Source of the DNA: Psococerastis gibbosa
Lineage: Eukaryota; Arthropoda; Insecta; Psocodea; Psocidae
Direction: 5' to 3'
Assembly: GCA_963971405.1 (NCBI GenBank)
Contig: OZ020485.1
Location: 7,626,001-7,690,000, forward strand
Length of the DNA stretch: 64,000 nt
The notes beneath the pieces are model-generated. The model ran no database searches. It saw only the letters and a list, made by a program, of their open reading frames with translations, and was not told the DNA's origin. Shown in pieces: positions 1 through 50,945 of this stretch (positions are counted from its first letter, which is position 1; the number at the start of each line of letters is the position of its first letter). A program made the position numbers and the translations under genes.

Positions 1-34
1 ATTATTCATTCAACTGTGACTCGGTGAGGTAGAT

Positions 35-2831: not shown

Positions 2832-2859
2832 TTTCTAACGACCGATTGCAACTGATGCA

Positions 2860-20203: not shown

Positions 20204-21673
20204 TAGTGGAGTGCAATTAGACAAAAAAATGGCAAAACCACGGAATCCAGGGACAGTCCATGAATATTCAAATATTTTTTAAAAATTTGTTGTTAGTGGT
20301 AGGCCTATATAGAAAAAAGGTTAAAAAAAAATTTCACTGCTTACAATTTTTAGCTACACGGTGTGGCCGCATAACTACCTCTTTTTGTAATGCACGCCAT
20401 TCGGTCGGTGGATGTCCTAGCGACATGTTTATGGTCTCGTTCGAGAGGTGAGACTATACACTTTTGTCTTAGGCATATATAGTTCCGAAGATCAAAACAT
20501 TTAGATCACGTCCCCCATGCTCGATACATTGAGTATTAGTGGAGCGCCGTAAGTCAAAAAAATGGAAAAGCCTCGGAATTCAGGGACAGTCAATGAATAT
20601 TTATAAAAACTTCGAAAATGTGTTTAATAGTATATAGAAAAATGTTAAAAAAAAAATTGCCCGCTCACAATTTTTAACTAAAGGGTGTGGCAGCGTAACT
20701 TCCTGTTTTGGAATGCGCACCTTTTGGTCGGTTTATGTCGTAACGGAGTGTTAGTGGTCTCGTTCGAGAGGCGGGACTATAAAGTTCTGTCTTACATAGT
20801 TTTGAATCAAAACATTAAAATCACGTCTTCCAATCTCGATACAATGAGTGTTAGTGGAGCGCCGTGAGTAAAAAAAAAATGGAAATGCCTCGGAATTCTG
20901 TCAATGCCTATTTATAAAAACTTCAAAAATGTTTTTTTAATAGTATATAGAAAAATGTTAAAAAAAAAATTGTGCACCCTCTCAATTTTAAATTACAGGG
21001 TTACCACTTTTTTTTTACTCACGGCGCTCCACCAATACTCATTGTATCGAGATTGAAAGACGTGATTTTAATGTTTTGATCTTCAAAACTATGTAAGACA
21101 GAACTTAATAGTCCCACCTCTCGAACGAGACCACTAACACTCCGTTACGACAAAAACCGACCGAATGGCACGCATTACAAAACTGGAAGTTGTTTTGCCG
21201 CACCCTGTAGTTAAAAATTGAGGAGGGGCAAATTTTTTTTTAAACATTTCTTTATATTCTATTGAAAACACATTTTCAAAGTTTTTATAAATATTCATTG
21301 ACTTGCCCTGAATTCCGAGGCTTTTCCATTTTTTCGACTTACGGCGCTCCACTAATACTCAATGCATCGAGCATGGGGGAAGTGATCTAAATGTTTTGAT
21401 CTTCGGAACTATGTAGTCCTAAGACAAAAGTGCATAGTCCCACCTCTCGAACGAGACCATAAACACTTCGCTACAACATCCACCGACCAAATGGCGCGCA
21501 TTACAAAAAGAGGAAGTTATGCGGCCACACCCTGTAGCTAAAAATTGAGAGCGGTGAAATTTTTTTTCTTAACTTTTTTTTTATATTACACTAACAACCC
21601 ATTTTTAAATTTTTTATAAATATTCATGGACTGTCCCTGGATTCCGAGGTTTTTGTCTAATTGCACTCCACTA
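20204..21673. mobile_element. Large foldback element with tandemly repeated arms
   Basis: Ends TAGTGGAGTGCAATTAG and its reverse complement. The left arm has two and a half tandem units of about 320-335 bp, each with TGGAGCGCCGT, CCTCGGAATTC, TTATAAAAACTTC, TCTCGTTCGAGAG and AGTATATAGAAAAATG-type phrases. The right arm mirrors the first two units from 21018 onward. The last half unit (about 20850-21000) forms an unpaired loop of about 150 nt. Flanking TA on both sides suggests a 2-3 bp target. The frames of 60-72 codons are read from the repeats. Confidence 0.85.
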
Positions 21674-25274: not shown

Positions 25275-25530
25275 TCATAGAAAATTTCGCTCAAATGCAT
25301 TGAGTGCCCTGCCAGTATTGCCGTGCGGTAATGTGTTGGTCTGACTTATCTAGAATTTACCTCACCTCCAGTGACGTCAGGAGGGCAACCCCCCCCCCCC
25401 CCCCCGCCGAGATATCGGAAATTTAACCGTAGGCAAATTATTTACCATGAAATTACTCATTTTCTCTATCTACTAATTTTGATAAATTGATAAATTGGAA
25501 AGAATGTTCGATTAAATTCGGACCGGTTCT
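25275..25530 (+). repeat. Dispersed repeat (CGCTCAAATGCATTG family)
   Basis: Collinear with 57241-57445: GCTCAAATGCATTG, CTCCAGTGACGTCAGG, a 16-base C run, GAGATATCGGAAAT, TTACCATGAAATTACTCATT, TTCGGACCGGTTCTTTT. It ends exactly where the large inverted duplication begins. Confidence 0.75.
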
Positions 25531-26094
25531 TTTCTCGATAATGACTTCAATATTATTATTATATTACAATATGTGGACACGCGTTTTCTTTTTTAAATTT
25601 TCCAAGGAAACCATTATTGAAGTGTCGACTCTCTTCTAGAGAATCCATTTCGAGACTCGATGCACACCACATCTTTAGGCCTATCTATTCCTGCTAACAA
25701 ATATCAATCTATTGACTTTATCAAACAGTGCATTTCATTCCAATTCTATGTTAAAAAGTTTGAAACTATTGCCCATTATTGTATTTTGTTGACTTCTTTC
25801 ACTTGACGAAAGTCGCTGTGGACAAGCTATATTTCTAACGTCAGTCTTTTAGAGTCTGATCAGACGTCTTAGGGATGTTAGTAGCCTATAGCATTTCTCG
25901 CAGCTCCCAGTTTAATCGGGAGTTTTCTAAGGTATGAGTAAACTTACGTAATGTCAAATTATAGGTGGGAATTTAAATGAAGGAATAAATAGCTACACAA
26001 AAAATCCACAGAATTTTTCCTCCCCCCTTAACCATGCATGTGATCAGCAATCAAAGTTTTCAATGTGACATATATGAATTATAATTTCATGAAA

Positions 26095-27712
26095 TCAACA
26101 ATTCATGACCCCCAAGCCGCACCGAAAATGAGCAAAGTTCTTGGAGCCCTGTTGCCTCTTGAAGAAATCCCCAAAGTCGCCAAAGTTGTTGTAGCCATGT
26201 TGCCTCTTGAAGAAATCCCCAAAGTCGCCAAAGTTGTTGTAGCCCTGTTGCCTCTTGAAGAAATCCCCAAAGTCGCCAAAGTTGTTGGAGCCCTGTTGCC
26301 TCTTGAAGAAATCCCCAAAGTCGCCAAAGTTGTTGTAGCCCTGTTGCCTCTTGAAGAAATCCCCAAAGTCGCCAAAGTTGTTGTAGCCCTGTTGCCTCTT
26401 GAAGAAATCCCCAAAGTCGCCAAAGTTGTTGTAGCCCTGTTGCCTCTTGAAGAAATTACCAAAGTCGCCGAAATCATTCTTCCGCATGTAAAAGCCTGTA
26501 AAAAAGGGATTTTTCAATGTTAAGTTCAATTTGTTTGGGATTTAAGGATGATTGTTATAATTCAAGCAATTACCTGTTGAATTTTTAATTTTTAACATGA
26601 ATTCAACTCTGATTAGGTTGACTATCATGCATACGGGTATATACGAGGTCTATAAATAAAGTAATGAGATTGATGTTATAGCCCTTGACAGGTTTCATCG
26701 TGGGCTTTGAAATTTTCATGTATTCAAGATCAAGGTGTAAAGAGCATTCACGGCAAATTTGGAGTTTGTAGCGTTACTACCTCAAATTTTGTGTCTACTT
26801 TAGAAAAACTTGTTTAAAGAGTGTGTCACGAAAATGAGTGGTCAGAATTTAGCTTTTTGTGAAACTTCGGTATAGTGCGAGTGAAAATTTTTCAAAACTT
26901 CAACAGGCTTATGGGCCAGTATACGTCTTTATCAAGGGCACAGGTTTATCGATGGTTTAAGGCATTTCCAGAGGGGTGGGAGATGATTGAAGACGAATCC
27001 CGCAGCGGAAGACCTTCAACTGCAAGGTTGGATGAAAAAATTTGACAAAGTGCGGGCTCTTGTGCGTTCCAATCGACGTTTGACAGTCAGAATGATCGCA
27101 GATTGATTAAATTTAAACCACACGACTGTTAACCTTCGAAAAAGGCTCATGCGAACGCGACCAAACATCATGAACAATTGGGTGCTGCATCATGACAATG
27201 CGCCTTGTCACACAGCGATGCCAATCAATGAATATCATTCTGACCAGTATGAACTTCTCAACCATTCTATTCACCCGATGTGAGTCCTTCTGACTTCTTC
27301 CTGTTCCCAAGGATCAAAAATGAGCTCAAAGGGCGCCATTTTGGTACCACTGATAACATAAAATCCGCCGTAACCAGCAAACTGGAGGTCATCCAGGAAT
27401 CTGAGTTCCAGCACTGCACTGAAGAGTGGAAAAGCCGCCTCCAGCGCTTTATCAACGCACAAAGGAACTACTTCGAGGGATATCGAATTGAAATCTAAAT
27501 ATGTTTATGTGAAATATTTTAAAAAATCTCGTCTCATTACTTTATTTAAAGACCTTCTTTGTATATATTTAGATCCGGTGATTTCTGTGGATCATTTTGT
27601 TGGACAATAAATTTGTCTGTAAAAACTTACCAGGAGCCTGCATCCCTCTGTCTTCTTGGGCATAAATGCCAACGGCGGAAGCAGCCAGGAATACTAAGGA
27701 TAATTGGAACAT
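26095..27712 (-). CDS. Secreted repeat-peptide precursor, copy 1 (two exons, 160 aa)
   Basis: Exon 1 is 27712-27631 and exon 2 is 26495-26095, joined across a GT-AG intron (donor CCTG|GTAAGT, acceptor TTTTTTACAG|GC), giving 160 codons plus stop. Exon 1 encodes a signal peptide (MFQLSLVFLAASAVGIYA) then QEDRGMQAPG. Exon 2 begins with a diverged unit ending DFGNFFKR, then six 16-residue units of the form QQGYNNFGDFGDFFKR (one starts QQGS, one QHGY). The tail QQGSKNFAHF plus RCGLGVMNC has two Cys. Every unit ends in Lys-Arg, a convertase site. Cleavage and trimming would yield QQGYNNFGDFGDFF, possibly with pyroglutamate; no C-terminal Gly, so no amidation. Role unknown: neuropeptide-like precursor, or another secreted Phe/Gly-rich protein. 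A TATA-like box lies at 27772-27766. Confidence 0.7.
26642..27566 (+). mobile_element. Decayed mariner-like element in the intron of the peptide gene
   Basis: Inverted ends AGGTCTATAAATAAAGTAAT and ATTACTTTATTTAAAGACCT. The transposase is broken by stops, shifts and an internal deletion. Recognisable pieces are the N-terminal helix-turn-helix remnant (RSNRRLTVRMIAD), NWVLHHDNAPCH with the second catalytic Asp, and FFLFPRIKNELKGRHF. It runs opposite to the host gene. The same insertion is in the other arm at 35752-36653, so it predates the duplication. Confidence 0.85.
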
Positions 27713-27765
27713 ACTGAGGCAATAGCGGATTGTTCAAAATGTGCTGTTCACGGATGCAGAATCCG

Positions 27766-27772
27766 CTTTTAT
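27766..27772 (-). promoter_or_regulatory. TATA-like box of peptide gene copy 1
   Basis: ATAAAAG 54 bp upstream of the start codon, conserved with 35543-35549 in the second copy within GGGCATAAAAGCGGATTC. Transcription start about 25-30 bp downstream is inference. Confidence 0.5.
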
Positions 27773-28319
27773 GCCCAGCTCATTAAAAATAATCAGCGCG
27801 ATAATACTTTGACATTTCTAAATTGGTTGTATAAATAATATATTGGTTTATTATTAATGTCGTTCCAAGAAATAATGAGGTCTATTATTAGGCTTTTTTC
27901 GGCTTAAGCGTAATATGCTTATTGATTACATTAATTTATTTATTTACAGACCCATTTTGGAATTGGTTGTAAATGGGCCATTTGGGCACATTAATGTTGT
28001 TAGCTGAAATTGGGATAACTAATATTTGGTTATTATGTGCTTCGGCCTTGGACAATAATGAGCACCTACGTAATATTAAATTTCACGATCAATCAAAAAT
28101 CATGTATACCTAATTGGACTGATTACGGTAATATGCATAGCGTGATTTCATTCAAATTTAGTGAAAAGTTAGGCCTAAATAAGGGCCGGGTTTTTCGGCG
28201 GATCGAAATTGACAGCTATTTCGGTGATATCACCATCAACTTATTTGCGGAAACCTAGCAGAAACATATTATAAGAATCAGAACGAGTGAACATGTCCTG
28301 TACATGCTTTTCGATTCTT

Positions 28320-28912
28320 CAATTAGAATCGATAGGTATCATATCGAGATTGCTAATGTGAGCAGTTCCATGGCAAATGATTCGCGGCCATTCTGCATTA
28401 AAAACTGATGACAACGTCGAAAAAGTTGCTAATTTGATTCGGTCTGACCGTCGATTAAGTATTCGGGCAGATGCTGAAACTGTAGGCATTGATATGGAAT
28501 GTGTACGGCAAATTTTACATGACAATTCGAACATGCGAAAAGTGTGTGCAAAAATGGTTCCAAAAATGCATTCTAATTCCGCATTATCTGTACAGCGGTT
28601 TCTGGCCAAGTTCAGCATCCCAGTGTTAGAACATCCACCTTACCCACCATGAGACTTCTATCTTTTCCCTAAGGTGAAATCTGCATTGAAAGGTACGAGA
28701 TTTGAGTCCCGAAGGAGTTGACAGAAGATGACTTCAGCACTGCTTTCAACAGTGGAAAATTCGCATTGAGCGTTGCATTGATAGAGAACGGGTGTATATA
28801 GGATACAATATATCAATATATTGAAGGTGATAATAAGGAATTATTTATAAGAAGAAATTAAAATTGTTTACAACGTCAGTCCCGTTATTTAATAGCCACA
28901 CCTCGTATAACG
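28320..28912 (+). mobile_element. Second mariner-like remnant, internally deleted (left arm)
   Basis: The frame at 28377-28652 reads DDNVEKVANLIRSDRRLSIR, VRQILHDNSNMRKVCAKMVP, then jumps to FLAKFSIPVLEHPPYPP and FYLFPKVKSALKGTRFES in the next frame. The middle of the catalytic domain is deleted. The 3' terminal repeat GCCACACCTCGTATAA is present; the 5' terminal repeat was not found. Distinct from the intronic mariner. Confidence 0.8.
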
Positions 28913-29031
28913 TATTTAGATTAACAGATTTAGAATGTACAATGGCAGCTTGCAGTGCCAGTTTTAAATTTCATATAGGTATGTATATTCTGTGTATTGA
29001 AACTCAGCCAGCCTACAAAATGAGTTTGATG

Positions 29032-29820
29032 GAAAAATTACCTTTTAGTATTTAGTTTGAGTAGGTACATAACAGCTATAGGTATGTAGGCTAACTTGTG
29101 GAACTGCATACCCAACCATAATATCTGTTTTATTGTGTACTTACAATAGGCTACTATGGGCAAAGGTATGTAACAAAAATCAGTAATCTACCAGGTCTGT
29201 AGGTTTCCAACAGATACAATATACAGTAAGCGTTTTCAAAATGCGATTAAAAAAAAATTTGAAATACGCACATACTGTGTGTGTGTATATGTTTCTAAGA
29301 ATTGAGTACATAAGTACAAAGTATAAACTCATAATTCGAAACTTTAGACTCAGAGCCTATATAAGCCTTATAAACAGAACTACTATACTATAATGCAGGA
29401 TCCTGAAAGTGGACCCTATATTGCCTATTTTTTTCCCCCTAACTGGTTACTCCACCAGCTCAAAAAATAAATTTACAAAATTTACCCCCGAAAAAAATCC
29501 TGGCTACGGGCTTGTGTATATGTAGTAGGATGTCAATGGTCCTCATCATAGAGCACTAGCGACAATAATATGGGGGGGGGGGGAGAGGGGCGGCAAATTC
29601 GACCGTGACCCCCCCCCTTAAAAAAAAGTCTGTATCCACCTCTGGGGTGAAATTTTTTGAAAAATACGGCTGAAATATTGGGGTTTTACGCATTTTCAGG
29701 GCAATAAGGTTTCTATATTATAGGAAATTACGGTAATACAATTGAGCAGAAGGGGGCTACAAAACTGAAAAAGGGCAGCTAAGTTCATATTTGTCGGAAT
29801 GACCAGTGGTCAAAGGTTAC
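29032..29820. other. Spacer of the inverted duplication, no gene
   Basis: AT-rich DNA with G- and C-run repeats at 29570-29630 and a CTGGCTACGGGCTTG end at 29500 like the one at 62025. No frame worth reporting. Confidence 0.4.
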
Positions 29821-30214
29821 TAAGGTGCCCATTCCATTGACCAGCTAGGGCTATTTCCAAAAACGGTGACGTGGTAGCAGACATTCAAGACATAGGTGGC
29901 GTCTCCACCGACCTCGCATTGCAGAATTGACGGAAATGTTTATTTTCCTCTATGCCATAGTTAAAATTGATCAATGATCATACAGTAAAATCGCAAACAA
30001 ACAAACAAACTAAAATTAAAAAATGGCCTCATGGGATATGTTAATTACAAACATTTTAATAGATTTCTATAAAAAGAAAAACAAACATTTCCGTCAATGT
30101 CATTTGCAATCTGCAATGCGAAGTCGGTGGAAACGCTACCTAAGTCTTGAATGTCTGCTACCACGTCACCGTTGTTGGAAATAGCCCTAGCCGGTCATTG
30201 GAATGGGTGCCTTA
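29821..30214. mobile_element. Foldback element, family GTGCCCATTCCACCGACC, copy 2
   Basis: TAAGGTGCCCATTCCATTGA on the left and CAATGG/CATTGGAATGGGTGCCTTA on the right, with arms of about 130 bp sharing ACGTGGTAGCAGACATTCAA with copy 1 at 18705. Confidence 0.85.
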
Positions 30215-30974
30215 GTGCAAAGTAAACTCTTAAATCTAAACCTTAGAATCAGAGCCTATACGCCTTATAAACTACCTACTATAGTATAATGCATGATCCT
30301 GCAATTGGACCCTATATTGCCTTTTTTTGTAATACCGTCCCCCATCCCCAAGCTAGCGCTTGATTGGGACAATATGATAATAATAATAATATTAATTCGT
30401 GTATTTTTCTTCATTTTCAACGCAGGTAGGTAGACAGAAGCTGAAGTGTCCCCCCCCCCATGTCACCCCCGGGAGAAAATTGGTGAAAAATAGGTCTGAA
30501 ATAGTGGGGTGTTACGCATTTTTAGGAACATAATACAGCCCCCATAGCCCCCCTCCCCCCGTAGATCTGCGCCTGTAACTAACAAATATAGTATTACTTC
30601 TTTAACTAACTACGGACTATGAACTATAATTTACATACCTAACTATACCAAAAAATGATAGAAAATGTATATATGATATTTAAACCTGGCACTGCAAGCT
30701 AACATAGTACAATCCAAATCTGTAAATCTAAATACGGTATATAGGCCTAATCATGAAAGAAGCTAATGTAATTTATGAGTCATCCTTTGTCCAAAATCTT
30801 ATAATTGTCTTGAATGTTGCTCCTCTTTGCATTAGGCCCTATACTTAGTGTTGTTTACGGGGGATACTACAAAACGTTCAATACATAGGCTTTAAGGCGT
30901 AAGATTCCATATAAAATAGGCTATTATATAATACTGTAGGTTATACACCCGCGACCCGTGTGCTGCTGTTTCTA
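30215..30974. other. No gene seen; G/C-run repeat
   Basis: 30450-30575 is a decayed C-run element ending GTAGATCTGCGCCTG. The remainder is unremarkable. Confidence 0.35.
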
Positions 30975-31092
30975 AGTAAAGCAGGCGGTCCCGGGCCTTC
31001 CTAGTTGAGTGTAAGAGAGGGCTTTATAGCCCTAACTCCGCTAGGTAGGCTTGGTAATAGAAACAATAAAAAGTCCTTATTTATTTATTTAT
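30975..31092 (+). mobile_element. tRNA-derived SINE, copy 3, 5'-truncated
   Basis: Begins in the body (AAAGCAGGCGGTCCCGGGCC), with GTGTAAGAGAGGGCTTTATA, TAATAGAAACAATAAAAAGT and a (TTTA)n tail. Confidence 0.75.
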
Positions 31093-31573
31093 GTTGATTG
31101 TAACCGATTTTTATTCTGTAATGCTTGAAGTAACATACTGTAACTGTATGATATCTTACACATTAACCCCTCAACGACGTGCTCACTACATTCACGCCTT
31201 AACTTCACAAACTGGCATAGACAGGCTAATATACAATAATGCAACACGGTAATAGTGTTGTACCATTCAATTCTCCCATCAATCGATTTCGTGCTTTGGG
31301 ATAGGGTAAGTCTAATGACTAAAATTGTAGCTACTAGCTTCACCAATTGTTTTATAAGCAATTTCTTAGTCTACTGTTTCTTACAGGCTGTTGATTGGAT
31401 ATGCTGTTTGGATATTAAATATCAGGCTATTCGTCATTACATTGCAATAGGCCTATCAAAAATGTAAAAAATGCAAACAAATTATTTCTACAATGCAATG
31501 TGCTATTCTAAACCTGTTACATATATTTCAACTGAAATTTAACCCAATGACAAGTATTATGGAAGTGCTCACA

Positions 31574-31718
31574 TGAGGCGGCAATTCCACCGACCTCGTT
31601 TTTCACCAAGAGCGTGACATTGACGTGGTAGCAGACATTTTTAGACAGTCCTTAATGTCTGCTACCACGTCAATGTCACGCTCACGGTGCAAAGCTGGGT
31701 CAATGGAATTGCCGCCTT
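31574..31718. mobile_element. Short foldback MITE
   Basis: AGGCGGCAATTCCACCGACC left and CAATGGAATTGCCGCCT right, with inner AGCGTGACATTGACGTGGTA / TACCACGTCAATGTCACGCT paired almost perfectly. Same end and internal phrases as the foldbacks at 16692, 18705 and 29821. Confidence 0.85.
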
Positions 31719-31734
31719 AGCACTCTCGCTATAC

Positions 31735-32255
31735 CAATCGATTCTAATTGAAGAATCAATCGCAAATCATTTACAGGACCTGTTCAGTCGTTCTGATTCT
31801 TATAATATGTTTCAGCAAGGTTTTCGTAAATATGTTGATGGTGATATCACCGAAATAGCTGTCAATTTCAATTCGCCAAAAAACCCGGCCTTCTTTAGGC
31901 CTCATTTTTGACTAAATTTTAATGAAATCACGCTATACATATTACCGTAATCAGTCCAATCATACATGATTGGCGGCACATAAATTTAATATTACATATG
32001 TGCTCATTATTGTCCAAGGCCGAAGCACATAATAACCAAATATTAGTTATCCCAATTTCTGCTAACAACATTAATGTGGCCAAATGGCTCATTAACAACC
32101 AGTTCGAAAATGGGTCTGTAATCAATAAGCATATTACGCTTAAGCCAATTAAAGCCTAATAATAACCTCATTATTTCTTGTAACGACATTAATAATAAAC
32201 CAATATATTATTTGTACAACCAATTTTGAAATGTCAAAGTGTTATCACGCATTGG
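31735..32255 (+). repeat. Third partial copy of the peptide gene upstream region
   Basis: Collinear with 34981-35520 (and inverted with 27800-28330): ATCGATTCTAATTGAAGAAT, TTGATGGTGATATCACCGAA, GCTCATTATTGTCCAAGGCC, AACCAATATATTATTTGTAC. It stops at ATGTCAAAGTGTTATC, about 35 bp before the TATA-like box seen in the other copies, so the promoter core and gene are absent. The left side lacks the second mariner. Confidence 0.85.
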
Positions 32256-33199
32256 GTTGCTGGGACCTCAAAATTGTTGACTTGTCTTAATTGGATGCTG
32301 ATGCATACCTGGCTAGGCCGCGTACGTTTTAAATATTAGTACCATATGTCGTAGCCTAAACGAAACAAATTCAGACTTCGGCTAGGATACATACGGTAGT
32401 TTAAGAACAACAGAACTTTATGTTTTTCGCAACTATATTTGTAGTCTGTTAGGTAGGTAGCGTATCCTGCTACTTTGCATTATACACATGACAATAACTA
32501 ATATACGCTTTAAAGCACGTGCTACAATGGTGTGTGCAGAGTGTGAATGGCATAGTTATGAAGAACTGAAGAGTTATGTCACATCTTCAAGAAATCACAT
32601 CGACAGGCGATACCTAGGTTATGACTAGTGACACTTAATTAAATCAGGGGTACAGTGTAGTTCGCCTCCAAGCGGTGTACCCTGGGTGATGCTCAATGAA
32701 CTATAATTCTTCGCCTTTTACCGTGCCACAACCTAGAAAAAGAAGAACCGGCCCTTCTCAGGGCCAGTGGCGGCGCTACGGGGGTGCCGGAGGGGGCCTG
32801 GCCCCCCCAACAGTTTCTCCGGCCCCTCCGGGGCCCCCCCTACTTTTGAGATATTTTACATGTTGTTAAATTGCAGAATTAGTGAATTACCTATTCCCAA
32901 TGAAAAATATTTTGGCCCCCCCCCCCCAGATAGAAGTCATGCCCCTCCATGCCCCCCCCCCCCCCGCCTTAAAATTTCTGCTCAGGGCCCTGCATCAGGC
33001 AGAGATCGCGTAGTTATGTTTAAGTTTATTTTTCCTTTTCTTATTATTGGAGGCACTTGACTCGACGAGGGCCTGGGGCTTCTATACCAGTCTATCTTTC
33101 ATAATTTGTCGCATTAGTATCCATTTTAAATAATAAATTAAAGTTATGTACCTACTGAAACTAAATACTACTAAGTAATGTTTGCCTCAAACTACTTAC
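32256..33199. other. Spacer with C-run element, no gene
   Basis: 32766-33000 begins CCAGTGGCGGCGCTACGGGG and holds four C runs; it looks like another decayed hAT-type element, but no matching flank was found. The 97-codon frame at 32767 is Pro/Gly read through homopolymers. Confidence 0.45.
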
Positions 33200-33885
33200 T
33201 TTTACGTTACTTTATCCAACGCCCGAACGTGGTAGTTCAACCATTCGTCGCCGAGCTTCCCAAAAGCGGTTCACCAAGTCATCGTTCGGGTAGGTGAGAG
33301 CCGTGCAGTCCCTCAGGTGGTCTTCGTCCATTCTTCCACCGTGACATAGTGGACATGTGTCATCGGCGGCAAGGCCAATGCGGTGTAGGTGGGCCTGAAG
33401 GTAGTCATGGCCGGTATTGAGGCGGAATCAAGCAACAGCTTCAGCTCTCCTATACAGATGGGTCCCACTGTAGCAAGATTCTCCCACTTTTTGCCAGTGC
33501 TTAGGGTCTTGAGGGTGTTCTTCGTGGCATTGCTGATTGCTGCATTTATTTGGCTCTTGGCTCGGTTCAGGGTTAGTGGCACGTTTGGTTGGTCCATTTC
33601 CGCTTCTTCCTTGGCTTTCGCGTCAGCTTTTTCATTGCCATATATTCCCACATGGCTAGGTACCCACTGTAGGGAGGCTGCCCACCCTGCCGAAATGAGT
33701 TCCTCTAGTTTTTCTCGGCAATTGATTGTCTCCTCACAATCGGTGGGGGCGTTGCTGCTTAGCATTAATATAGCCGCTTGGGAGTCTATGAGGAAAACCA
33801 CTCTTGCCGGACGCAGGTTAGTAGCTATGAGCTGGTTAGATGCTTCGAATACGGCGCGAACCTCGCCATTTGGCCTCAAACTCAT
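33200..33885 (-). pseudogene. Non-LTR retrotransposon fragment: RNase H domain and C-terminal zinc knuckle
   Basis: Minus strand, 3' part of a polyprotein. The RNase H domain reads VVFLIDSQAAILML with one catalytic Asp, then GWAASLQWVPSHVGIYGNEK with A-D, the WVPSHxGxxGNExAD signature of retrotransposon RNase H. After LALPPMTHV a one-base shift restores DTCPLCHGGRMDEDHLRDC, a C-x2-C...H...C knuckle typical of the C terminus in this element group. The reverse transcriptase is missing: the fragment is cut at 33885, within a few bases of the inner edge of the right duplication arm. The tail (ATAAAGTAACGTAAA) matches 18228. Confidence 0.85.
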
Positions 33886-34068
33886 TTGGTAGGCTGGCTG
33901 GGTTTCAATACACGGAATATACAGACCTACAGTATATGAAATTTAAAACTGGCACTACAAGCTGCCATTGTACATCCTAAATCTGTAAACCTAAATACAT
34001 TATACGAGGTGTGGCTATTAAATAACAGGACTGACGTTGAAAAAATTTTAATTTCTTTTTATATATAT

Positions 34069-34272
34069 CCTTTATATATCTTTTATCCTTCTTTTTTACT
34101 ACTCCTCTGTTTCCTTCTTCTCTATTTAATTTTAATTAAGTTATAATAGTTCACAATGTTTTTTTTCTGGTTTTTAAGGTTAGCATGAAAACAAGACTTT
34201 AGGCTATAGTCTTATTGTTCGCCTTTTGTTTTGTTTACAATAAAGTCGTATTTTCATTTCATTTCATTTATA
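34069..34272 (+). mobile_element. LINE 3' end inserted in the right-arm mariner
   Basis: Absent from the left arm. Contains AAGGTTAGCATGAAAACAAG, GTCTTATTGTTCGCCTTTTG, ACAATAAAGTCG and a terminal (ATTTC)n. Same tail in reverse at 11163-11260 and related at 39203. Confidence 0.75.
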
Positions 34273-34446
34273 CATAATTACTTATTATCACCTTCAATAT
34301 ATTGATATATTGTAGGCCTATATATATACACCCGTTCTCTATCCATGCAACGCTCAATGCGAATTTTCCATTGTTGGGAGCATTGCTGGAAGTCATCTTC
34401 TGTCAACTCCTTCAGGACTCAAATCTCGTACCTTTCAATGCAGATT

Positions 34447-34629
34447 TTTTTTTTTTTTTATAAAAAGATAAATCGCATACAAACAATTTAATGAGTGTAT
34501 CCGATTGACCTTTCCAGTCGCCTCTGTAGGTCATTACCCGTGATGAGTACGACACGTCTCCGATTGCATGGCGTGTAAAGACTCGCACAATTGCAAGCAC
34601 GTTACCACCTGGCTATCGAATAAGTCGAT
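34447..34629 (-). mobile_element. Retroposon (SINE-like) insertion in the right-arm mariner
   Basis: Absent from the left arm. Begins with a T run on the plus strand (poly-A of a minus-strand insert), then AAATCGCATACAAACAATTT and AATGAGTGTATCCGATTGAC. Related tails at 52022 and 58047. Confidence 0.7.
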
Positions 34630-35542
34630 AAATTTCACTTTAGGGAAAAGATAGAAGTCACATGGCAAGTAAGGTGGATGTTCTAACACTGGGATGCTGA
34701 ACTTGGCCAGGAACCGCTTTACAGATAACGCGGAATTTCAATTAACTTTTGGAACCATTTTTGCACAGACTTTTCGCATATTCAAATTGTCACGTAAAAT
34801 ATGCCGTACACATTCCTTATCAAATCCCACAGTTTCAGCAATTGCACGAATACCTAATCGAGGGTCAGACCGAATCAAATTAGCCACTTTTTCGACATTG
34901 TCATCCGTTTTTAATACTGAATGGCCGCGAATCATTTGCCATGGAACTGCTCACATTAGCAATCTCGATATGATACCTATCGATTCTAATTGAAGAATCG
35001 AAAAGCATGTACAGGACCTGTTCACTCGTTCTGATTCATATAATATGTTTCTGCTAGGTTTCCGCAAATATGTTGATGGTGATATCACCGAAATAGCTGT
35101 CGATTTCAATTCGCCGAAAAACCCGGCCCTCCTTTAGGAATAACTTTTCACTAAATTTTAATGAAATCACGCTATGCATATTACCGTAATCAGTCCAATC
35201 ATACATGATTTTTGATTGATCATGAAATTTAATATTACGTAGGTGCTCATTATTGTCCAAGGCCGAAGCACATAATAACCAAATAGGCCTACTATAGTTA
35301 TCCAAATTTCTGCTAACAACATTAATGTGCCCAAATGGCCCATTTACAACCAATTCCAAAATGGGTCTGTAAATAAATAAATTAATGTAATCAATACGCA
35401 GATAACGCTTAAGCCGAAAAAAGCCTAATAATAACCTCATTATTTCTTGTAACGACATTAATAATAAACCAATATATTATTTATACAACCAATTTAGAAA
35501 TGTCAAAGTATTATCGCGCTGATTATTTTTAATGAGCTGGGC

Positions 35543-35549
35543 ATAAAAG
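35543..35549 (+). promoter_or_regulatory. TATA-like box of peptide gene copy 2
   Basis: ATAAAAG 54 bp before the ATG, inside a stretch identical to that of copy 1 (GGGCATAAAAGCGGATTC). Good position for a short 5'UTR. Confidence 0.5.
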
Positions 35550-35602
35550 CGGATTCTGCATCCGTGAACAGCACATTTTGAACAATCCGCTATTGCCTCA
35601 AT

Positions 35603-37134
35603 ATGTTCCAATTATCCTTGGTATTCCTGGCTGCTTCCGCCGTTGGCATTTATGCCCAAGAAGACAGAGGGATGCAGGCTCCTGGTAAGTTTTAATTTAC
35701 AAATTTACTGTTCAACAAGATGATCCACAGAAATCGACGGATCTAAATATATACAAAGAAGGTCTTTAAATAAAGTAATGAGACGAGATTTTTTAAAATA
35801 TTTAATACACATATATTTAGATTTCAATTCAATATCCCTCGATGTAGTTCCTTTGTGCGTTGATAAAGCACTGGAGGCGGCTTTTCCACACTTCAAAGCA
35901 GTGCTGGAACTCAGATTCCCAGATGGCCTCCAGTTTGCTGGTTATGTTTTCAGTGGTACCAAAATGGCGTCCTTTTGATCCTTGGGAACAGGAAGAAGTC
36001 AGAAGGACGCACATCGGGTGAATAGGATGGTTGAGAAGTTCATACTGGTCAGAATGATATTCATTGATTGGCATCGCTGCGTGACAAGGCGCATTGTCAT
36101 GATGCAGCACCCAATTCTTTTTTATGTTTGGTCGCGCTCGCATGAGCCTTGTTCGAAGGTTAGCAGTTGTGTGGTTTAAATTTAATCAATCTGCGATCAT
36201 TCTGACTGTCAAAAGTCGATCGGAACGTACAAGAGCCCGCACTTTGTCAATTTTTTCATCCAACCTTGCAGTTGAAGGTCTTCCGCTGCGGGATTCGTCT
36301 TCAATCATCTCCCGACCCTCTGGAAATTCCTTAAACCATCAATAAACCTGTGCCCTTGATAAAAAAAAGTATACCGGCCCATAAGCCTGTTGAAGTTTTG
36401 TAAAATTTTCACTCGCACTATACCGAAGTTTCACAAAAAGCTAAATTCTGCCCACACATTTTCGTGACACAATCTTTAAACAAGTTTTTTTTTAAAGTAG
36501 ACACAAAATTTGAGGTAGTAACGCTACGAACTCCAAATTTGCCGTGAATGCTCTTTACGCCTTGATCTTGAATGCCTGAAAATTTCAAAGCCCACGATTA
36601 AACCTGTCAAGGGCTATAACATCAATCTCATTACTTTATTTATAGACCTCGTATATACCCGTATGCATGATAGTCAACCTAATCAGAGTTGAACTCATGT
36701 TAAAAATTAAAAATTCAACAGGTAATTGCTTGAATTACAACAATCATCCTTAAATCCCAAACAAATTGAACTTAACATTGAAAAATCCCTTTTTTACAGG
36801 CTTTTACATGCGGAAGAATGATTTCGGCGACTTTGGTAATTTCTTCAAGAGGCAACAGGGCTACAACAACTTTGGCGACTTTGGGGATTTCTTCAAGAGG
36901 CAACAGGGCTACAACAACTTTGGCGACTTTGGGGATTTCTTCAAGAGGCAACAGGGCTACAACAACTTTGGCGACTTTGGGGATTTCTTCAAGAGGCAAC
37001 AGGGCTCCAACAACTTTGGCGACTTTGGGGATTTCTTCAAGAGGCAACAGGGCTACAACAACTTTGGCGACTTTGGGGATTTCTTCAAGAGGCAACAGGG
37101 TTTACGGTGCGGCTTGGGGGTCATCAATTGTTGA
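35603..37134 (+). CDS. Secreted repeat-peptide precursor, copy 2 (two exons, 138 aa)
   Basis: Exon 1 is 35603-35684 and exon 2 is 36800-37134, with the same GT-AG sites as copy 1 and 138 codons plus stop. The signal peptide and QEDRGMQAPG linker are identical to copy 1. After the first diverged unit (NDFGDFGNFFKR) there are five 16-residue units QQG(Y/S)NNFGDFGDFFKR, then a short tail QQG-LRCGLGVINC keeping both Cys. Relative to copy 1 one unit and the SKNFAHF part are deleted in frame, and Met becomes Ile near the end. Retained frame, splice sites and Lys-Arg sites in both copies argue for selection or recent duplication. The two genes diverge from the spacer. What it does is unknown; expression is untested. 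Confidence 0.7.
35752..36653 (-). mobile_element. Decayed mariner-like element in the intron of copy 2
   Basis: Inverted counterpart of 26642-27566 with the same ends and the same internal deletion. Minus-strand pieces include NWVLHHDNAPCHAAMPINEY and KGRHFGTTENITSKLEAIWE. A 9-bp difference (loss of AACATAAAATCC-type bases) separates it from the left copy. Confidence 0.85.
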
Positions 37135-37692
37135 TTTCATGAAATTATAATTCATATATGTCAGATTGAAAACTTTGATTGCTGATCACATGCATGGTTA
37201 AGTGGGGGGGGAAAATTCTGAGGATTTTTTGTGTAGCTATTTATTCCTTCATTTAAATTCCCATCTAGAATTTGATATTTCGTAAGTTTGCCTACCTTAG
37301 AAAACTCTCGATTAAACTGAGAGCTGCAAGAATTGCTAAACGTACTAACATCCCTAAGTCTGATTAGACTTTAAAAGACAGACGTTACAAAGAACTTGTC
37401 CACAGCGACTTTCAAGTGAAAGAAGTCAACAAAATACAATAATGGGCAATAGTTTCAAACTTTTTAACATAGAATTGGAATGAAATGCACTGTTTGATAA
37501 AGTCAATAGATTGATATTTGTTAGCAGGAATAGATAGGCCTAAAAATGTGGTGTGCATCGAGTCTCGAAATGAATTCTCTAGAAGAGAGTCGACACTTCA
37601 ATAATGCTGGTTTCCTTGGAAAATTTAAAAAAGAAAACGCGTGTCCACATATTGTAATATGATAATAATAATGAAGTCATTATCGAGAAAAA

Positions 37693-39660: not shown

Positions 39661-40599
39661 CTAATGTTAAAAAAAAAATAGTCTACCAATAAGAACGGGG
39701 TTCGTAGGCTTTGGCTGCGGTTTATCCCGACCGTTGGTTGCCATTAATGCCTTCGCATTAAAGGTACCTTCTGCAACATTCTACTATGCTACGGGCGTTA
39801 TCCATAACCACAAAAGATATTGTATCGGCCAAAGCAATTGTGTCTCAACGTATTCTTTGAAAAGATAGGCTAACACTGTCATGTCTTCATGATAATCTGT
39901 ATTTCAGTCCTTCATTGCTTTCGCGTTGATAGAAGAAGCACGTTACTCACCCAGCCTTCACTAGCACCGGGATGAAGTATTATCATATACGGTACTTGTA
40001 GGTAGCCTACTCCAGAAGCAGGCATATTTGCGGCTCAATTAATTCTGATGTGCGCTCCATTATAGTGTCTCCATATCAAATCCCTATTGTTTCAATAAAA
40101 TGCAAAATGAGTCCAACAAGAATGTCAAAAAATAGGTATAAAAGAAGTGTTAGTTAGCCTATGTAAATATTTTTATTGTAATGTGTAAATGCAGATGAAT
40201 GCTGCGGATATATCTTGGAGAGATCGTGTCCCTAATTCCGAGGCTGTTCTTAGTCGCCAACAGTATCAGCCATTGAGGATGAGTTCAAAAAGTTAACGGC
40301 CACATAATGTATTCCAAAAGTAAGATGAACTTATATCAATTACTTTATGACACCCTACGATCGAGTTTCCGGCAAATCCGCATTGTTGTACTTTTCACAT
40401 TTAACTTAAAATACAGAAGCTTAGAAGTTTTGTATACAGCATTCCAACAAAACAGTCCTAACTGTTTTCATTATATCTGTACAGGGGAAAAGCATTGGAT
40501 GCGCAAGGCATAACAAAATGGTGCAATCGAAATTTTTACAGTGTCGCACGATATCAAAACATTACAAATCCATACTTTTATCATTTTGCGTGGACTATA
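39661..40599. other. No gene seen before the satellite
   Basis: The plus-strand stretch at 40195-40290 (NAADISWRDRVPNSEAVLSR) resembles a retrotransposon C-terminal region but is too short to call. The rest is unremarkable. Confidence 0.35.
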
Positions 40600-43500
40600 T
40601 GTTGTGTCATTACTCATTAATATGATTAATGGGAAAACTTACATTGATTGACTATATTATTCTCATAGTTCTCGTCTCGTGGCAATGCCGAAAAAAAAGA
40701 ATTAGAATTAAAAGACTGAAATATTAGCCATATGCGATGTTTGTTAAAAAAAAAATATGTATACTGTATATTATATTCAGTACTATATATATTGTGTAAT
40801 TACTGATTAATATGATTAATGGGAAAACTTACATTGATTGACTGTATTATTCTCATAGTTCTCGTCTCGTGGCAATGCCGAAAAAAAAGAATTAGAATTA
40901 AAAGACTGAAATATTAGCCATATGCGATGTTTGTTAAAAAAAAAATATGTATACTGTATATTATATTCAGTACTATATATATTGTGTAATTACTGATTAA
41001 TATGATTAATGGGAAAACTTACATTGATTGACTGTATTATTCTCATAGTTCTCGTCTCGTGGCAATACTGAAAAAAAAGAAGAAAAAAGAATTAGAATTA
41101 AAAGACTGATATATTAGCCATGTGATGTTTATTAAAAATATATATATGCTGTATATTATATTCAGTACTATATATATTGTGTAATTACTGATTAATATGA
41201 TTAATGGGAAAACTTACATTGATTGACTGTATTATTCTCATAGTTCTCGTCTCGTGGCATTGCCGAAAAAAAAGAAGAAAAAAGAATTAGAATTAAAAGA
41301 CTGATATATTAGCCATGTGATGTTTATTAAAAATATATATATGCTGTATATTATATTCAGTACTATATATATTGTGTAATTACTGATTAATATGATTAAT
41401 GGGAAAACTTACATTGATTGACTGTATTATTCTCATAGTTCTCGTCTCGTGGCAATACTGAAAAAAAAAGAATTAGAATTAAAAGACTGAAATATTAGCC
41501 ATATGCGATGTTTGTTAAAAAAAAAATATGTATACTGTACATTATATTCAGTAGGCCTACTATATATAATGTGTCATTACTCATTATATGATTAATGGGA
41601 AAACTTGCATTGGTTGACTGTATTATTCTCATAGTTCTCGTCTCGTGGCAATGCCGAAAAAAAAGAATTAGAATTAAAAGACTGAAATATTAGCCATATG
41701 CGATGTTTGTTAAAAAAAAAATATGTATACTGTATATTATATTCAGTACTATATATATTGTGTAATTACTGATTAATATGATTAATGGGAAAACTTACAT
41801 TGATTGACTGTATTATTCTCATAGTTCTCGTCTCGTGGCAATACTGAAAAAAAAGAAGAAAAAAGAATTAGAATTAAAAGACTGATATATTAGCCATGTG
41901 ATGTTTATTAAAAATATATATATGCTGTATATTATATTCAGTACTATATATATTGTGTAATTACTGATTAATATGATTAATGGGAAAACTTACATTGATT
42001 GACTGTATTATTCTCATAGTTCTCGTCTCGTGGCATTGCCGAAAAAAAATAAGAAAAAAGAATTAGAATTAAAAGACTGATATATTAGCCATGTGATGTT
42101 TATTAAAAATATATATATGCTGTATATTATATTCAGTACTATATATATTGTGTAATTACTGATTAATATGATTAATGGGAAAACTTGCATTGGTTGACTG
42201 TATTATTCTCATAGTTCTCGTCTCGTGGCAATACTGAAAAAAAAGAAGAAAAAAGAATTAGAATTAAAAGACTGATATATTAGCCATGTGATGTTTATTA
42301 AAAATATATATATGCTGTATATTATATTCAGTACTATATATATTGTGTAATTACTGATTAATATGATTAATGGGAAAACTTACATTGATTGGCTGTATTA
42401 TTCTCATAGTTCTCGTCTCGTGGCAATACTGAAAAAAAAAGAATTAGAATTAAAAGACTGAAATATTAGCCATATGCGATGTTTGTTAAAAAAAAAATAT
42501 GTATACTGTACATTATATTCAGTAGGCCTACTATATATAATGTGTCATTACTCATTATATGATTAATGGGAAAACTTGCATTGATTGACTGTATTATTCT
42601 CATAGTTCGTCTCGTCTCGTGGCAATGCCGAAAAAAAAGAAGAAAAAAGAATTAGAATTAAAAGACTGATATATTAGCCATGTGATGTTTATTAAAAATA
42701 TATATATGCTGTATATTATATTCAGTACTATATATATTGTGTAATTACTGATTAATATGATTAATGGGAAAACTTACATTGATTGACTGTATTATTCTCA
42801 TAGTTCTCGTCTCGTGGCATTGCCGAAAAAAAAGAAGAAAAAAGAATTAGAATTAAAAGACTGAAATATTAGCCATATGCGATGTTTGTTAAAAAAAAAA
42901 TATGTATACTGTACATTATATTCAGTAGGCCTACTATATATAATGTGTCATTACTCATTATATGATTAATGGGAAAACTTGCATTGGTTGACTGTATTAT
43001 TCTCATAGTTCTCGTCTCGTGGCAATGCCGAAAAAAAAGAATTAGAATTAAAAGACTGAAATATTAGCCATATGCGATGTTTGTTAAAAAAAAAATATGT
43101 ATACTGTACATTATATTCAGTAGGCCTACTATATATAATGTGTCATTACTCATTATATGATTAATGGGAAAACTTGCATTGGTTGACTGTATTATTCTCA
43201 TAGTTCTCGTCTCGTGGCAATGCCGAAAAAAAAGAATTAGAATTAAAAGACTGAAATATTAGCCATATGCGATGTTTGTTAAAAAAAAAATATGTATACT
43301 GTATATTATATTCAGTACTATATATATTGTGTAATTACTGATTAATATGATTAATGGGAAAACTTACATTGATTGACTGTATTATTCTCATAGTTCTCGT
43401 CTCGTGGCAATACTGAAAAAAAAGAAGAAAAAAGAATTAGAATTAAAAGACTGATATATTAGCCATGTGATGTTTATTAAAAATATATATATGCTGTATA

Positions 43501-46500
43501 TTATATTCAGTACTATATATATTGTGTAATTACTGATTAATATGATTAATGGGAAAACTTACATTGATTGACTGTATTATTCTCATAGTTCTCGTCTCGT
43601 GGCATTGCCGAAAAAAAAGAAGAAAAAAGAATTAGAATTAAAAGACTGATATATTAGCCATGTGATGTTTATTAAAAATATATATATGCTGTATATTATA
43701 TTCAGTACTATATATATTGTGTAATTACTGATTAATATGATTAATGGGAAAACTTACATTGATTGACTGTATTATTCTCATAGTTCTCGTCTCGTGGCAT
43801 TGCCGAAAAAAAAGAAGAAAAAAGAATTAGAATTAAAAGACTGAAATATTAGCCATATGCGATGTTTGTTAAAAAAAAAATATGTATACTGTACATTATA
43901 TTCAGTAGGCCTACTATATATAATGTGTCATTACTCATTATATGATTAATGGGAAAACTTGCATTGGTTGACTGTATTATTCTCATAGTTCTCGTCTCGT
44001 GGCAATGCCGAAAAAAAAGAATTAGAATTAAAAGACTGAAATATTAGCCATATGCGATGTTTGTTAAAAAAAAAATATGTATACTGTATATTATATTCAG
44101 TACTATATATATTGTGTAATTACTGATTAATATGATTAATGGGAAAACTTACATTGATTGACTGTATTATTCTCATAGTTCTCGTCTCGTGGCAATACTG
44201 AAAAAAAAGAAGAAAAAAGAATTAGAATTAAAAGACTGATATATTAGCCATGTGATGTTTATTAAAAATATATATATGCTGTATATTATATTCAGTACTA
44301 TATATATTGTGTAATTACTGATTAATATGATTAATGGGAAAACTTACATTGATTGACTGTATTATTCTCATAGTTCTCGTCTCGTGGCATTGCCGAAAAA
44401 AAAGAAGAAAAAAGAATTAGAATTAAAAGACTGAAATATTAGCCATATGCGATGTTTGTTAAAAAAAAAATATGTATACTGTACATTATATTCAGTAGGC
44501 CTACTATATATAATGTGTCATTACTCATTATATGATTAATGGGAAAACTTGCATTGGTTGACTGTATTATTCTCATAGTTCTCGTCTCGTGGCAATGCCG
44601 AAAAAAAAGAATTAGAATTAAAAGACTGAAATATTAGCCATATGCGATGTTTGTTAAAAAAAAAATATGTATACTGTATATTATATTCAGTACTATATAT
44701 ATTGTGTAATTACTGATTAATATGATTAATGGGAAAACTTACATTGATTGACTGTATTATTCTCATAGTTCTCGTCTCGTGGCAATACTGAAAAAAAAGA
44801 AGAAAAAAGAATTAGAATTAAAAGACTGATATATTAGCCATGTGATGTTTATTAAAAATATATATATGCTGTATATTATATTCAGTACTATATATATTGT
44901 GTAATTACTGATTAATATGATTAATGGGAAAACTTACATTGATTGACTGTATTATTCTCATAGTTCTCGTCTCGTGGCATTGCCGAAAAAAAAGAAGAAA
45001 AAAGAATTAGAATTAAAAGACTGAAATATTAGCCATATGCGATGTTTGTTAAAAAAAAAATATGTATACTGTACATTATATTCAGTAGGCCTACTATATA
45101 TAATGTGTCATTACTCATTATATGATTAATGGGAAAACTTGCATTGGTTGACTGTATTATTCTCATAGTTCTCGTCTCGTGGCAATGCCGAAAAAAAAGA
45201 ATTAGAATTAAAAGACTGAAATATTAGCCATATGCGATGTTTGTTAAAAAAAAAATATGTATACTGTATATTATATTCAGTACTATATATATTGTGTAAT
45301 TACTGATTAATATGATTAATGGGAAAACTTACATTGATTGACTGTATTATTCTCATAGTTCTCGTCTCGTGGCAATACTGAAAAAAAAGAAGAAAAAAGA
45401 ATTAGAATTAAAAGACTGATATATTAGCCATGTGATGTTTATTAAAAATATATATATGCTGTATATTATATTCAGTACTATATATATTGTGTAATTACTG
45501 ATTAATATGATTAATGGGAAAACTTACATTGATTGACTGTATTATTCTCATAGTTCTCGTCTCGTGGCATTGCCGAAAAAAAAGAAGAAAAAAGAATTAG
45601 AATTAAAAGACTGATATATTAGCCATGTGATGTTTATTAAAAATATATATATGCTGTATATTATATTCAGTACTATATATATTGTGTAATTACTGATTAA
45701 TATGATTAATGGGAAAACTTACATTGATTGACTGTATTATTCTCATAGTTCTCGTCTCGTGGCAATACTGAAAAAAAAAGAATTAGAATTAAAAGACTGA
45801 AATATTAGCCATATGCGATGTTTGTTAAAAAAAAAATATGTATACTGTACATTATATTCAGTAGGCCTACTATATATAATGTGTCATTACTCATTATATG
45901 ATTAATGGGAAAACTTGCATTGGTTGACTGTATTATTCTCATAGTTCTCGTCTCGTGGCAATGCCGAAAAAAAAGAATTAGAATTAAAAGACTGAAATAT
46001 TAGCCATATGCGATGTTTGTTAAAAAAAAAATATGTATACTGTATATTATATTCAGTACTATATATATTGTGTAATTACTGATTAATATGATTAATGGGA
46101 AAACTTACATTGATTGACTGTATTATTCTCATAGTTCTCGTCTCGTGGCAATACTGAAAAAAAAGAAGAAAAAAGAATTAGAATTAAAAGACTGATATAT
46201 TAGCCATGTGATGTTTATTAAAAATATATATATGCTGTATATTATATTCAGTACTATATATATTGTGTAATTACTGATTAATATGATTAATGGGAAAACT
46301 TACATTGATTGACTGTATTATTCTCATAGTTCTCGTCTCGTGGCATTGCCGAAAAAAAAGAAGAAAAAAGAATTAGAATTAAAAGACTGATATATTAGCC
46401 ATGTGATGTTTATTAAAAATATATATATGCTGTATATTATATTCAGTACTATATATATTGTGTAATTACTGATTAATATGATTAATGGGAAAACTTACAT

Positions 46501-49500: not shown

Positions 49501-50945
49501 TTAGAATTAAAAGACTGAAATATTAGCCATATGCGATGTTTGTTAAAAAAAAAATATGTATACTGTACATTATATTCAGTACTATATATATTGTGTAATT
49601 ACTGATTAATATGATTAATGGGAAAACTTACATTGATTGACTATATTATTCTCATAGTTCTCGTCTCGTGGCAATGCTGAAAAAAAAAGAATTAGAATTA
49701 AAAGACTGAAATATTAGCCATATGCGATGTTTGTTAAAAAAAAAATATGTATACTGTATATTATATTCAGTACTATATATATTGTGTAATTACTGATTAA
49801 TATGATTAATGGGAAAACTTACATTGATTGACTATATTATTCTCATAGTTCTCGTCTCGTGGCAATGCTGAAAAAAAAAGAATTAGAATTAAAAGACTGA
49901 AATATTAGCCATATGCGATGTTTGTTAAAAAAAAAATATGTATACTGTATATTATATTCAGTACTATATATATTGTGTAATTACTGATTAATATGATTAA
50001 TGGGAAAACTTACATTGATTGACTATATTATTCTCATAGTTCTCGTCTCGTGGCAATGCTGAAAAAAAAAGAATTAGAATTAAAAGACTGAAATATTAGC
50101 CATATGCGATGTTTGTTAAAAAAAAAATATGTATACTGTACATTATATTCAGTAGGCCTACTATATATAATGTGTCATTACTCATTATATGATTAATGGG
50201 AAAACTTGCATTGGTTGACTGTATTATTCTCATAGTTCTCGTCTCGTGGCAATGCCGAAAAAAAAGAAGAAAAAAGAATTAGAATTAAAAGACTGATATA
50301 TTAGCCATGTGATGTTTATTAAAAATATATATATGCTGTATATTATATTCAGTACTATATATAATGTGTCATTACTCATTATATGATTAATGGGAAAACT
50401 TGCATTGGTTGACTGTATTATTCTCATAGTTCTCGTCTCGTGGCAATACTGAAAAAAAAGAAGAAAAAAGAATTAGAATTAAAAGACTGATATATTAGCC
50501 ATGTGATGTTTATTAAAAATATATATATGCTGTATATTATATTCAGTACTATATATATTGTGTAATTACTGATTAATATGATTAATGGGAAAACTTACAT
50601 TGATTGACTGTATTATTCTCATAGTTCTCGTCTCGTGGCAATACTGAAAAAAAAGAAGAAAAAAGAATTAGAATTAAAAGACTGATATATTAGCCATGTG
50701 ATGTTTATTAAAAATATATATATGCTGTATATTATATTCAGTACTATATATATTGTGTAATTACTGATTAATATGATTAATGGGAAAACTTACATTGATT
50801 GACTGTATTATTCTCATAGTTCTCGTCTCGTGGCAATGCCGAAAAAAAAGAAGAAAAAAGAATTAGAATTAAAAGACTGATATATTAGCCATGTGATGTT
50901 TATTAAAAATATATATATGCTGTATATTATATTCAGTACTATATC
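40600..50945. repeat. Satellite array, monomer about 190-197 bp, about 53 copies
   Basis: A single direct tandem array of about 10.3 kb. Each monomer has GATTAATGGGAAAACTT, TTCTCATAGTTCTCGTCTCG, TGGCAATRCYG, an A-rich run, AGAATTAGAATTAAAAGACT and TTATATTCAGTA. Three monomer types are visible. A has CATATGCGATGTTTGTT plus an A run. B has a GAAGAAAAAAG insert and CATGTGATGTTTATT. C has GGCCTACTATATATAATGTG and CTTGCATTGGTTGACTG. In 43.3-48.7 kb they recur in a trimer of about 590 bp (for example GGCCTAC at 43909, 44499 and 45089). At 48.8-50.1 kb type A alone repeats every 191 bp with almost no change. No coding frame. Confidence 0.97.

Follow-up and report, generated by a model that had tools for sequence, protein, structure and literature searches.

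The window analysed here is a stretch of 64,000 nucleotides from the insect Psococerastis gibbosa (Psocidae; contig OZ020485.1, C2:7626001-7690000 in our contig numbering), and it contains two genes arranged head to head, copy A on the minus strand and copy B on the plus strand, which encode predicted secreted precursors built of repeated units ending in Lys-Arg (KR). The original prediction, made from the letters of the window alone, had presented them as a divergent pair for an unrecognised repeat peptide. Both genes are real, but the word pair understates the case, because sequence comparison across the genome indicates that A and B belong to a far larger family of putative secreted-peptide genes in this animal, not recognised before.

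The recomputed gene models keep the outer ends first given (26095-27712 and 35603-37134), and the in-frame splicing of a signal-peptide exon at GT-AG sites was confirmed, with an intron of phase 1 in both copies (Table 1). Exon 1 of A and B encodes the hydrophobic leader MFQLSLVFLAASAVGIYA, which is called a signal peptide by a hydrophobicity criterion only, and both splice at the donor CTG/GTAAGT and the acceptor TTTTTTACAG/GC (slash, junction). Exon 2 starts with FYMRK and a short first core, NDFGDFGNFF-KR, and continues with the predicted 16-residue units ending in KR, six in A and five in B, giving products of 160 and 138 residues. The QQGS variant occurs once per copy, as unit 4 of each. 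The tail RCGLGV(M/I)NC carries two Cys in both copies as described earlier, but it is no family mark, two Cys within the last 16 residues being found in 6 of 49 family frames, A and B among them. A and B together have 15 dibasic sites, 13 of which read FFKR/Q (slash, predicted cut), while none reads RXXR or has Arg at P4. With a predicted signal peptide and at least three near-identical units bounded by dibasic sites, both products belong to the general kind of putative multicopy secreted-peptide precursors. AlphaFold2 gave no confident fold for copy B exon 2 as a single sequence (mean predicted local distance difference test score, pLDDT, 50.7), and a search with one pattern found no kB-like immune promoter site on the plus strand of 35300-35602.

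Table 1. Features of copies A and B, and of the inverted duplication that carries them, in window coordinates
Feature	Position	Strand	Remarks
Copy A exon 1	27631-27712	-	signal peptide MFQLSLVFLAASAVGIYA + QEDRGMQAPG; similar exon at paralogous sites
Copy A intron	26496-27630	-	phase 1, GT-AG; carries mariner-like insertion
Copy A exon 2 including stop	26095-26495	-	first core, 6 KR units, Cys tail
Copy A 48-nt units (n = 6)	26155-26442	-	QQGY x3, QQGS, QQGY, QHGY
Copy A proximal promoter	27713-27875	-	with CATAAAAG; conserved among paralogues compared
Copy B proximal promoter	35440-35602	+	CATAAAAG at 35542; conserved among paralogues compared
Copy B exon 1, signal peptide	35603-35684	+	gene model, paralogous exons
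Copy B intron	35685-36799	+	phase 1, GT-AG; carries mariner-like element
Copy B exon 2 including stop	36800-37134	+	first core, 5 KR units, Cys tail
Copy B 48-nt units (n = 5)	36853-37092	+	QQGY x3, QQGS, QQGY
Inverted duplication, left arm	25530-28680		93-94% identity to right arm
Inverted duplication, right arm	34632-37691		93-94% identity to left arm
Decayed mariner-like element, intron A	26646-27555	+	24-bp terminal inverted repeats, 23/24 matching
Mariner-like element, intron B, same as in A	35760-36649	-	24-bp terminal inverted repeats
Third copy of upstream region, promoter-only fragment	31703-32250	+	~85% identical; stops before TATA and exon 1

Since several of the six frames of the 48-nt repeat are open, an open frame alone is no evidence for a gene. 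A hydrophobic ATG exon ending in GTRAGT occurs three times in the 64 kb, both strands included (128 kb), and two of the three are the duplicated exons of A and B; a hydrophobic start by itself is common (41 of 597 ATG frames). Unit 1 differs from the later units in the KR frame by three synonymous codons and two N/D swaps, which makes this frame the best-scoring of six, and another forward frame of the same comparison contains stops, although the test is modest (random placement chance 0.03 for the score and 0.17 for as few residue changes). Between A and B, the exons differ at 4 of 417 sites and the flanks plus the mariner-like element at 127 of 2171 (Fisher P 2e-6), and the codon alignment holds five differences, three nonsynonymous against 19.8 expected and two synonymous against 4.4 expected (P 0.19). 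This exon conservation is suggestive only, and purifying selection was not relied on from this pair: on the patchy A-B alignment, 202 of 3045 shifted positions of the exon mask do equally well, so that local gene conversion between A and B is a possible alternative source of the likeness. The strongest evidence that A and B are genes comes from the comparison with their paralogues.

A search of the genome (409 Mb, 68 contigs) with a shortened copy B as query (E <= 0.001, 131 of 131 candidates scored) returned 115 matches, which cluster at C15 31.82-31.90 Mb, C20 5.63-5.65 and 5.78-5.81 Mb, C1 14.32-14.34 Mb and C3 46.58 Mb, with further sites elsewhere. The window and the stretches around the matches contain 49 open exon-2 frames of the KR type, 42 of them distinct, a figure that differs from a gene count because some frames are halves of one broken gene. 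For 44 of these 49 frames, the same strand carries a promoter/exon-1 match no more than 2 kb upstream. At 31 of 58 candidate exon-1 sites, the signal peptide is intact, the donor is of phase 1 and exon 2 has two or more KR. The other 27 include broken copies, sites whose exon 2 is distant or missing, opposite-strand matches and one retroelement pick; several of the 58 are artefacts of opposite-strand or retroelement origin, and the acceptor was chosen by a heuristic that picked another AG in some models. The units come in two recurrent types, QQG.N-NFGDFGDFF-KR and QNDFGNFGDFF-KR, with up to about ten units per exon 2, and the tails differ across the family, F.NFGNYF ending 7 of the 18 frames of the C15 cluster. 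At C20 5.63-5.65 Mb, precursor genes are spaced at about 4.1-4.2 kb, four of them with identical exon-2 frames, and carry an inserted stretch, TTYIDENGHIHFAQGPN.NRHFGD, between KR units.

The processing signature was assessed on units picked by their ten-residue core alone, with K, R and the following residue left out of the selection. KR ends 218 of 261 units (106 of 130 distinct ones), RR a further 6 and KK 1, and Gln is the residue that follows in 240 of 261, the next position being free (commonest residue 33%). In frames tied to intact models, 170 of 195 units have KR, 7 have a different dibasic pair and none has KG, whereas the remaining frames keep KR in 48 of 66; eight of the nine KG units belong to a single C15 gene whose signal peptide contains a stop. 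KR thus appears to have been lost mainly in broken genes. Among the 130 distinct unit DNAs, variation is greatest at the third codon position (mean entropy 0.83 vs 0.53 and 0.37), and single-step codon changes are synonymous in 225 of 425 cases over the whole unit and in 58 against 33 not for the K, R and Q codons, where about 15% would be expected by neighbours. The amino-acid-based choice of units biases the core towards synonymy and leaves the K, R and Q codons unaffected, and the related units are non-independent, so that these counts carry no P value. The codon changes indicate that the KR frame is under selection. Sites of the FFKR/Q type without P4 Arg or RXXR suit convertases of the PC1/3-PC2 type rather than furin. 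Together, paralogues that share the signal-peptide exon and the phase-1 splice and keep KR and Gln in most units support the gene model, the secretion and the KR processing that had been predicted for A and B.

The promoter and first exon reach beyond the KR precursors. With the promoter-exon 1 stretch of copy B as query (40 of 143 candidates scored), at least 40 places matched, including two regions without a match in the unit search. At five of five loci read, a Cys-rich exon 2 lies behind a similar signal peptide and acceptor under the same promoter type, and its predicted product of 84 residues holds a relic of the unit, MRQNDFAHSWDYF or a near variant. The Cys-rich product has 86 matches in the genome, 84 of them without an internal stop; 74 are found on C20 in a tandem array of about 110 kb, with 68 of 73 spacings at 1440-1470 bp (commonest 1,458), and 12 on C19. 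Identity between five KR-branch and two Cys-branch genes is 70-78% in the promoter, 62-72% in exon 1 and 54-70% in the last 130 nt of the intron, falling to 41-47% in exon 2 and to 13-40% in the 166 nt after the stop, which is about the shuffled level (27%; one pair, five shuffles). A conserved cassette of proximal promoter, signal-peptide exon and phase-1 intron therefore precedes very different predicted second exons, and the unit relic inside the Cys-rich protein suggests that this protein evolved from a peptide precursor. We tentatively propose, at rather less than even odds, that one secretion cassette was re-used in a single genome both for a multi-copy pyroglutamate (pGlu)-peptide precursor and for a Cys-rich protein descended from it, forming a new secreted effector or venom-like superfamily; this would show a peptide-repeat gene becoming a disulphide-protein gene. 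No strong constraint was seen in the Cys branch; positive selection was not upheld there either, the nonsynonymous rate (dN) exceeding the synonymous rate (dS), by plain count, in 5 of 10 pairs.

The claim that the peptide matches no known family holds in the protein, PDB, Pfam, NCBIfam and viral-contig searches made. With copy B, the protein search gave nothing at E <= 1e-3 (best 0.015, among the 7993 scored candidates that share the most words with it), the proteins P0001-P0005 being FGDF-rich and without the KR unit, and residues 1-48 gave no candidate. The PDB, searched by sequence, returned nothing under E 0.2, Pfam and NCBIfam no family at E <= 1, and none of 27 pattern matches in viral contigs was confirmed. 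Since the protein search also missed close paralogues from the same genome, its negative outcome says little on other species, and the absence of a named homologue is weak evidence. The unit strings were not found in the part of the published text covered; shorter strings occur there, none of them in a paper that by title or abstract concerns this peptide, and one such match is, by title or abstract, to an FGDF motif in a viral protein.

The two genes lie in the arms of an inverted duplication, and the insertion in their introns is probably older than this duplication, as the same element occupies both. The mariner-like label is tentative, as Pfam gave only sub-threshold helix-turn-helix matches and the PDB nothing. 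Beside the promoter-only fragment lies a near-perfect hairpin (31610-31683), which has some 30 bp of stem and a z-score of -14.5 for its folding energy and may be a small-RNA precursor or a palindromic mobile element, and an RNase H-like open reading frame (ORF) between the genes (33313-33942; Pfam PF00075, E 3.9e-5, slightly under its cut-off) is probably a retroelement remnant. A second remnant, presumably of a transposase and without a significant Pfam match, is found upstream of the genes in both arms (28319-28652 and 34534-34993). Farther away are an AT-rich satellite array (40596-50944; 195-bp unit, about 53 copies, about 90% alike), tandem and inverted repeats (20204-21654; unit of about 315 bp) and an integrase ORF (694-1641; Pfam rve, E 1.5e-10) adjoined by long ORFs at 20-730 (plus) and 1661-2834 (minus), the whole region 20-2834 being presumably a large DNA transposon. 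This integrase has 3383 relatives at E <= 1e-30, and the organism is named in 3 of the 120 listed, all insects (Monomorium twice, Exocentrus).

With a probability of roughly 0.55, A and B could best be explained as part of a lineage-specific, tandemly amplified superfamily of secreted, convertase-cut precursors, whose exocrine or immune product would act outward and not as a brain hormone. Gene anatomy, family, frame constraint and the retention of KR with Gln are properties of the DNA itself, and if the genes are expressed and their products secreted, the precursor would be cleaved after KR by a dibasic convertase of the regulated secretory pathway, KR would then be trimmed from the released peptides by a carboxypeptidase, and the newly exposed N-terminal Gln would cyclise to pyroglutamate. 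Each precursor could in this way release several peptides of the pGlu-QGYNNFGDFGDFF or pGlu-NDFGNFGDFF type with free C-termini, produced in bulk by exocrine or immune tissue and acting outside the body or on other organisms, as in defence, venom or saliva. We infer a role in glandular, defensive or offensive secretion in preference to a neuropeptide because of copy number, tandem amplification, decay and product swapping. Several points weigh against this explanation. Neuropeptide families are capable of expansion too, the basic pair is not universal (MR or MK in 18 of 261 units, KG in 9), exon 1 was checked at 5 of the 86 Cys-branch matches, and within the A-B pair the shifted masks perform as stated above while synonymous change is not below expectation.

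The original prediction leaned towards a neuropeptide, and a precursor family of neuropeptides or peptide hormones expanded in this lineage, with KR-released peptides acting on a receptor of the same animal, would account for the signal peptide, the clean KR sites without the P4 Arg of furin, the near-identical tandem units and the N-terminal Gln; insect convertase literature (PMC8244231) also ties RR/KR sites to neuropeptide convertases. Nevertheless, dozens of clustered and partly decayed copies, N-terminal drift of the unit sequences, units without an amidation Gly and the presence of the same cassette before an unrelated Cys-rich product make such a family unlikely. Known bilaterian neuropeptide families were rejected, with no sequence homologue in the protein and Pfam searches, and orcokinin/pedal identity likewise: five peptides of this type, one of them also given in PMC5656890, were compared, and none rose above the level of shuffled units, 57-99% of which score as well.

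A secreted structural or adhesive material, such as silk, glue, cuticle or egg coat, with the Phe/Gly/Asn/Gln-rich repeat doing the work and KR a mere part of it, appears just as doubtful. High gene dosage, the aromatic, low-complexity repeat and the lack of a confident AlphaFold2 fold would suit such a material, but the columns of K, R and the Q after them rank with the best conserved and their codons carry the synonymous excess, the C15 gene that keeps the repeat while losing KR has a broken signal peptide, and the Cys-rich sister product is no repeat protein. That the locus is non-functional repetitive DNA, a tandem repeat open by chance and carried along in duplications, is very improbable: several other repeat frames are indeed open, and mariner-like insertions, a promoter-only fragment and decayed copies are present, yet third-position variation and synonymous excess over 130 distinct units, together with promoter, signal peptide and splice phase conserved in paralogues, argue against it. 

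In this one genome, peptide-repeat genes occur both intact and in decay alongside a Cys-rich relative amplified in tandem, and the whole series stands behind one promoter and signal peptide, so that the origin of new secreted products on an old secretion cassette becomes directly testable. The analysis also supplies exact masses for the predicted peptides, with [M+H]+ of 1638.6496 for pGlu-QGYNNFGDFGDFF, 1655.6761 for its free-Gln form and 1562.6183 for the pGlu form of the QQGS unit.

Among known systems, conotoxin superfamilies have a conserved signal peptide and a hypervariable mature region, while here, compared by description only, multi-copy KR repeats and a Cys-rich branch stand on one promoter cassette. 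Pedal peptides and orcokinins are non-amidated and F/D/G-rich. They are released from multi-unit precursors (PMC5656890), and the large clustered family found here sets A and B apart from them. In Drosophila Baramicin A, several tandem peptides are cut from one precursor in immune secretion at RXRR furin sites (PMC8423362); the layout of several tandem peptides per secreted precursor, also of the apidaecin type, is similar, but a furin-type immune polypeptide of this kind needs RXRR-type sites and was rejected, A and B having no RXXR at all.

Fungal KEPs, the KEX2-processed repeat proteins, combine a signal peptide with several near-identical units cut at KR (PMC7329392, PMC6339444), and signal peptide and KR-split repeats are present here too; however, KEPs are defined in fungi, the cassette here is common to a Cys-rich branch, and the window integrase has insects as its named relatives (3 of 120 listed). 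SSSGP (small secreted salivary gland protein) genes of the Hessian fly form tandem and inverted clusters in which promoter, signal-peptide region and an intron at or near the signal/mature boundary are conserved and the mature region is strongly diversified (PMC2955719), an arrangement also seen in the seven genes compared here (the intron by its last 130 nt). This likeness is one of layout; the part of PMC2955719 covered mentions no KR-delimited unit, and SSSGP genes have a conserved 3' untranslated region, whereas the 166 nt that follow the stop show no conservation between the two branches here. The KQY and KHI effectors of the pea aphid join a common secretory-signal coding region to divergent coding sequences, but use many miniature exons (37 in KQY1a) and are mostly scattered (PMC7495047), in contrast to the two exons, KR units and tandem arrays here. 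The family is not assigned to the SSSGP, KQY/KHI, KEP or neuropeptide kinds, because its 3' region departs from the SSSGP pattern and the searches made gave no homologue. By analogy, it resembles an SSSGP/KQY-like cassette joined to a repeat precursor that is putatively processed at KR, as KEP or neuropeptide precursors are.

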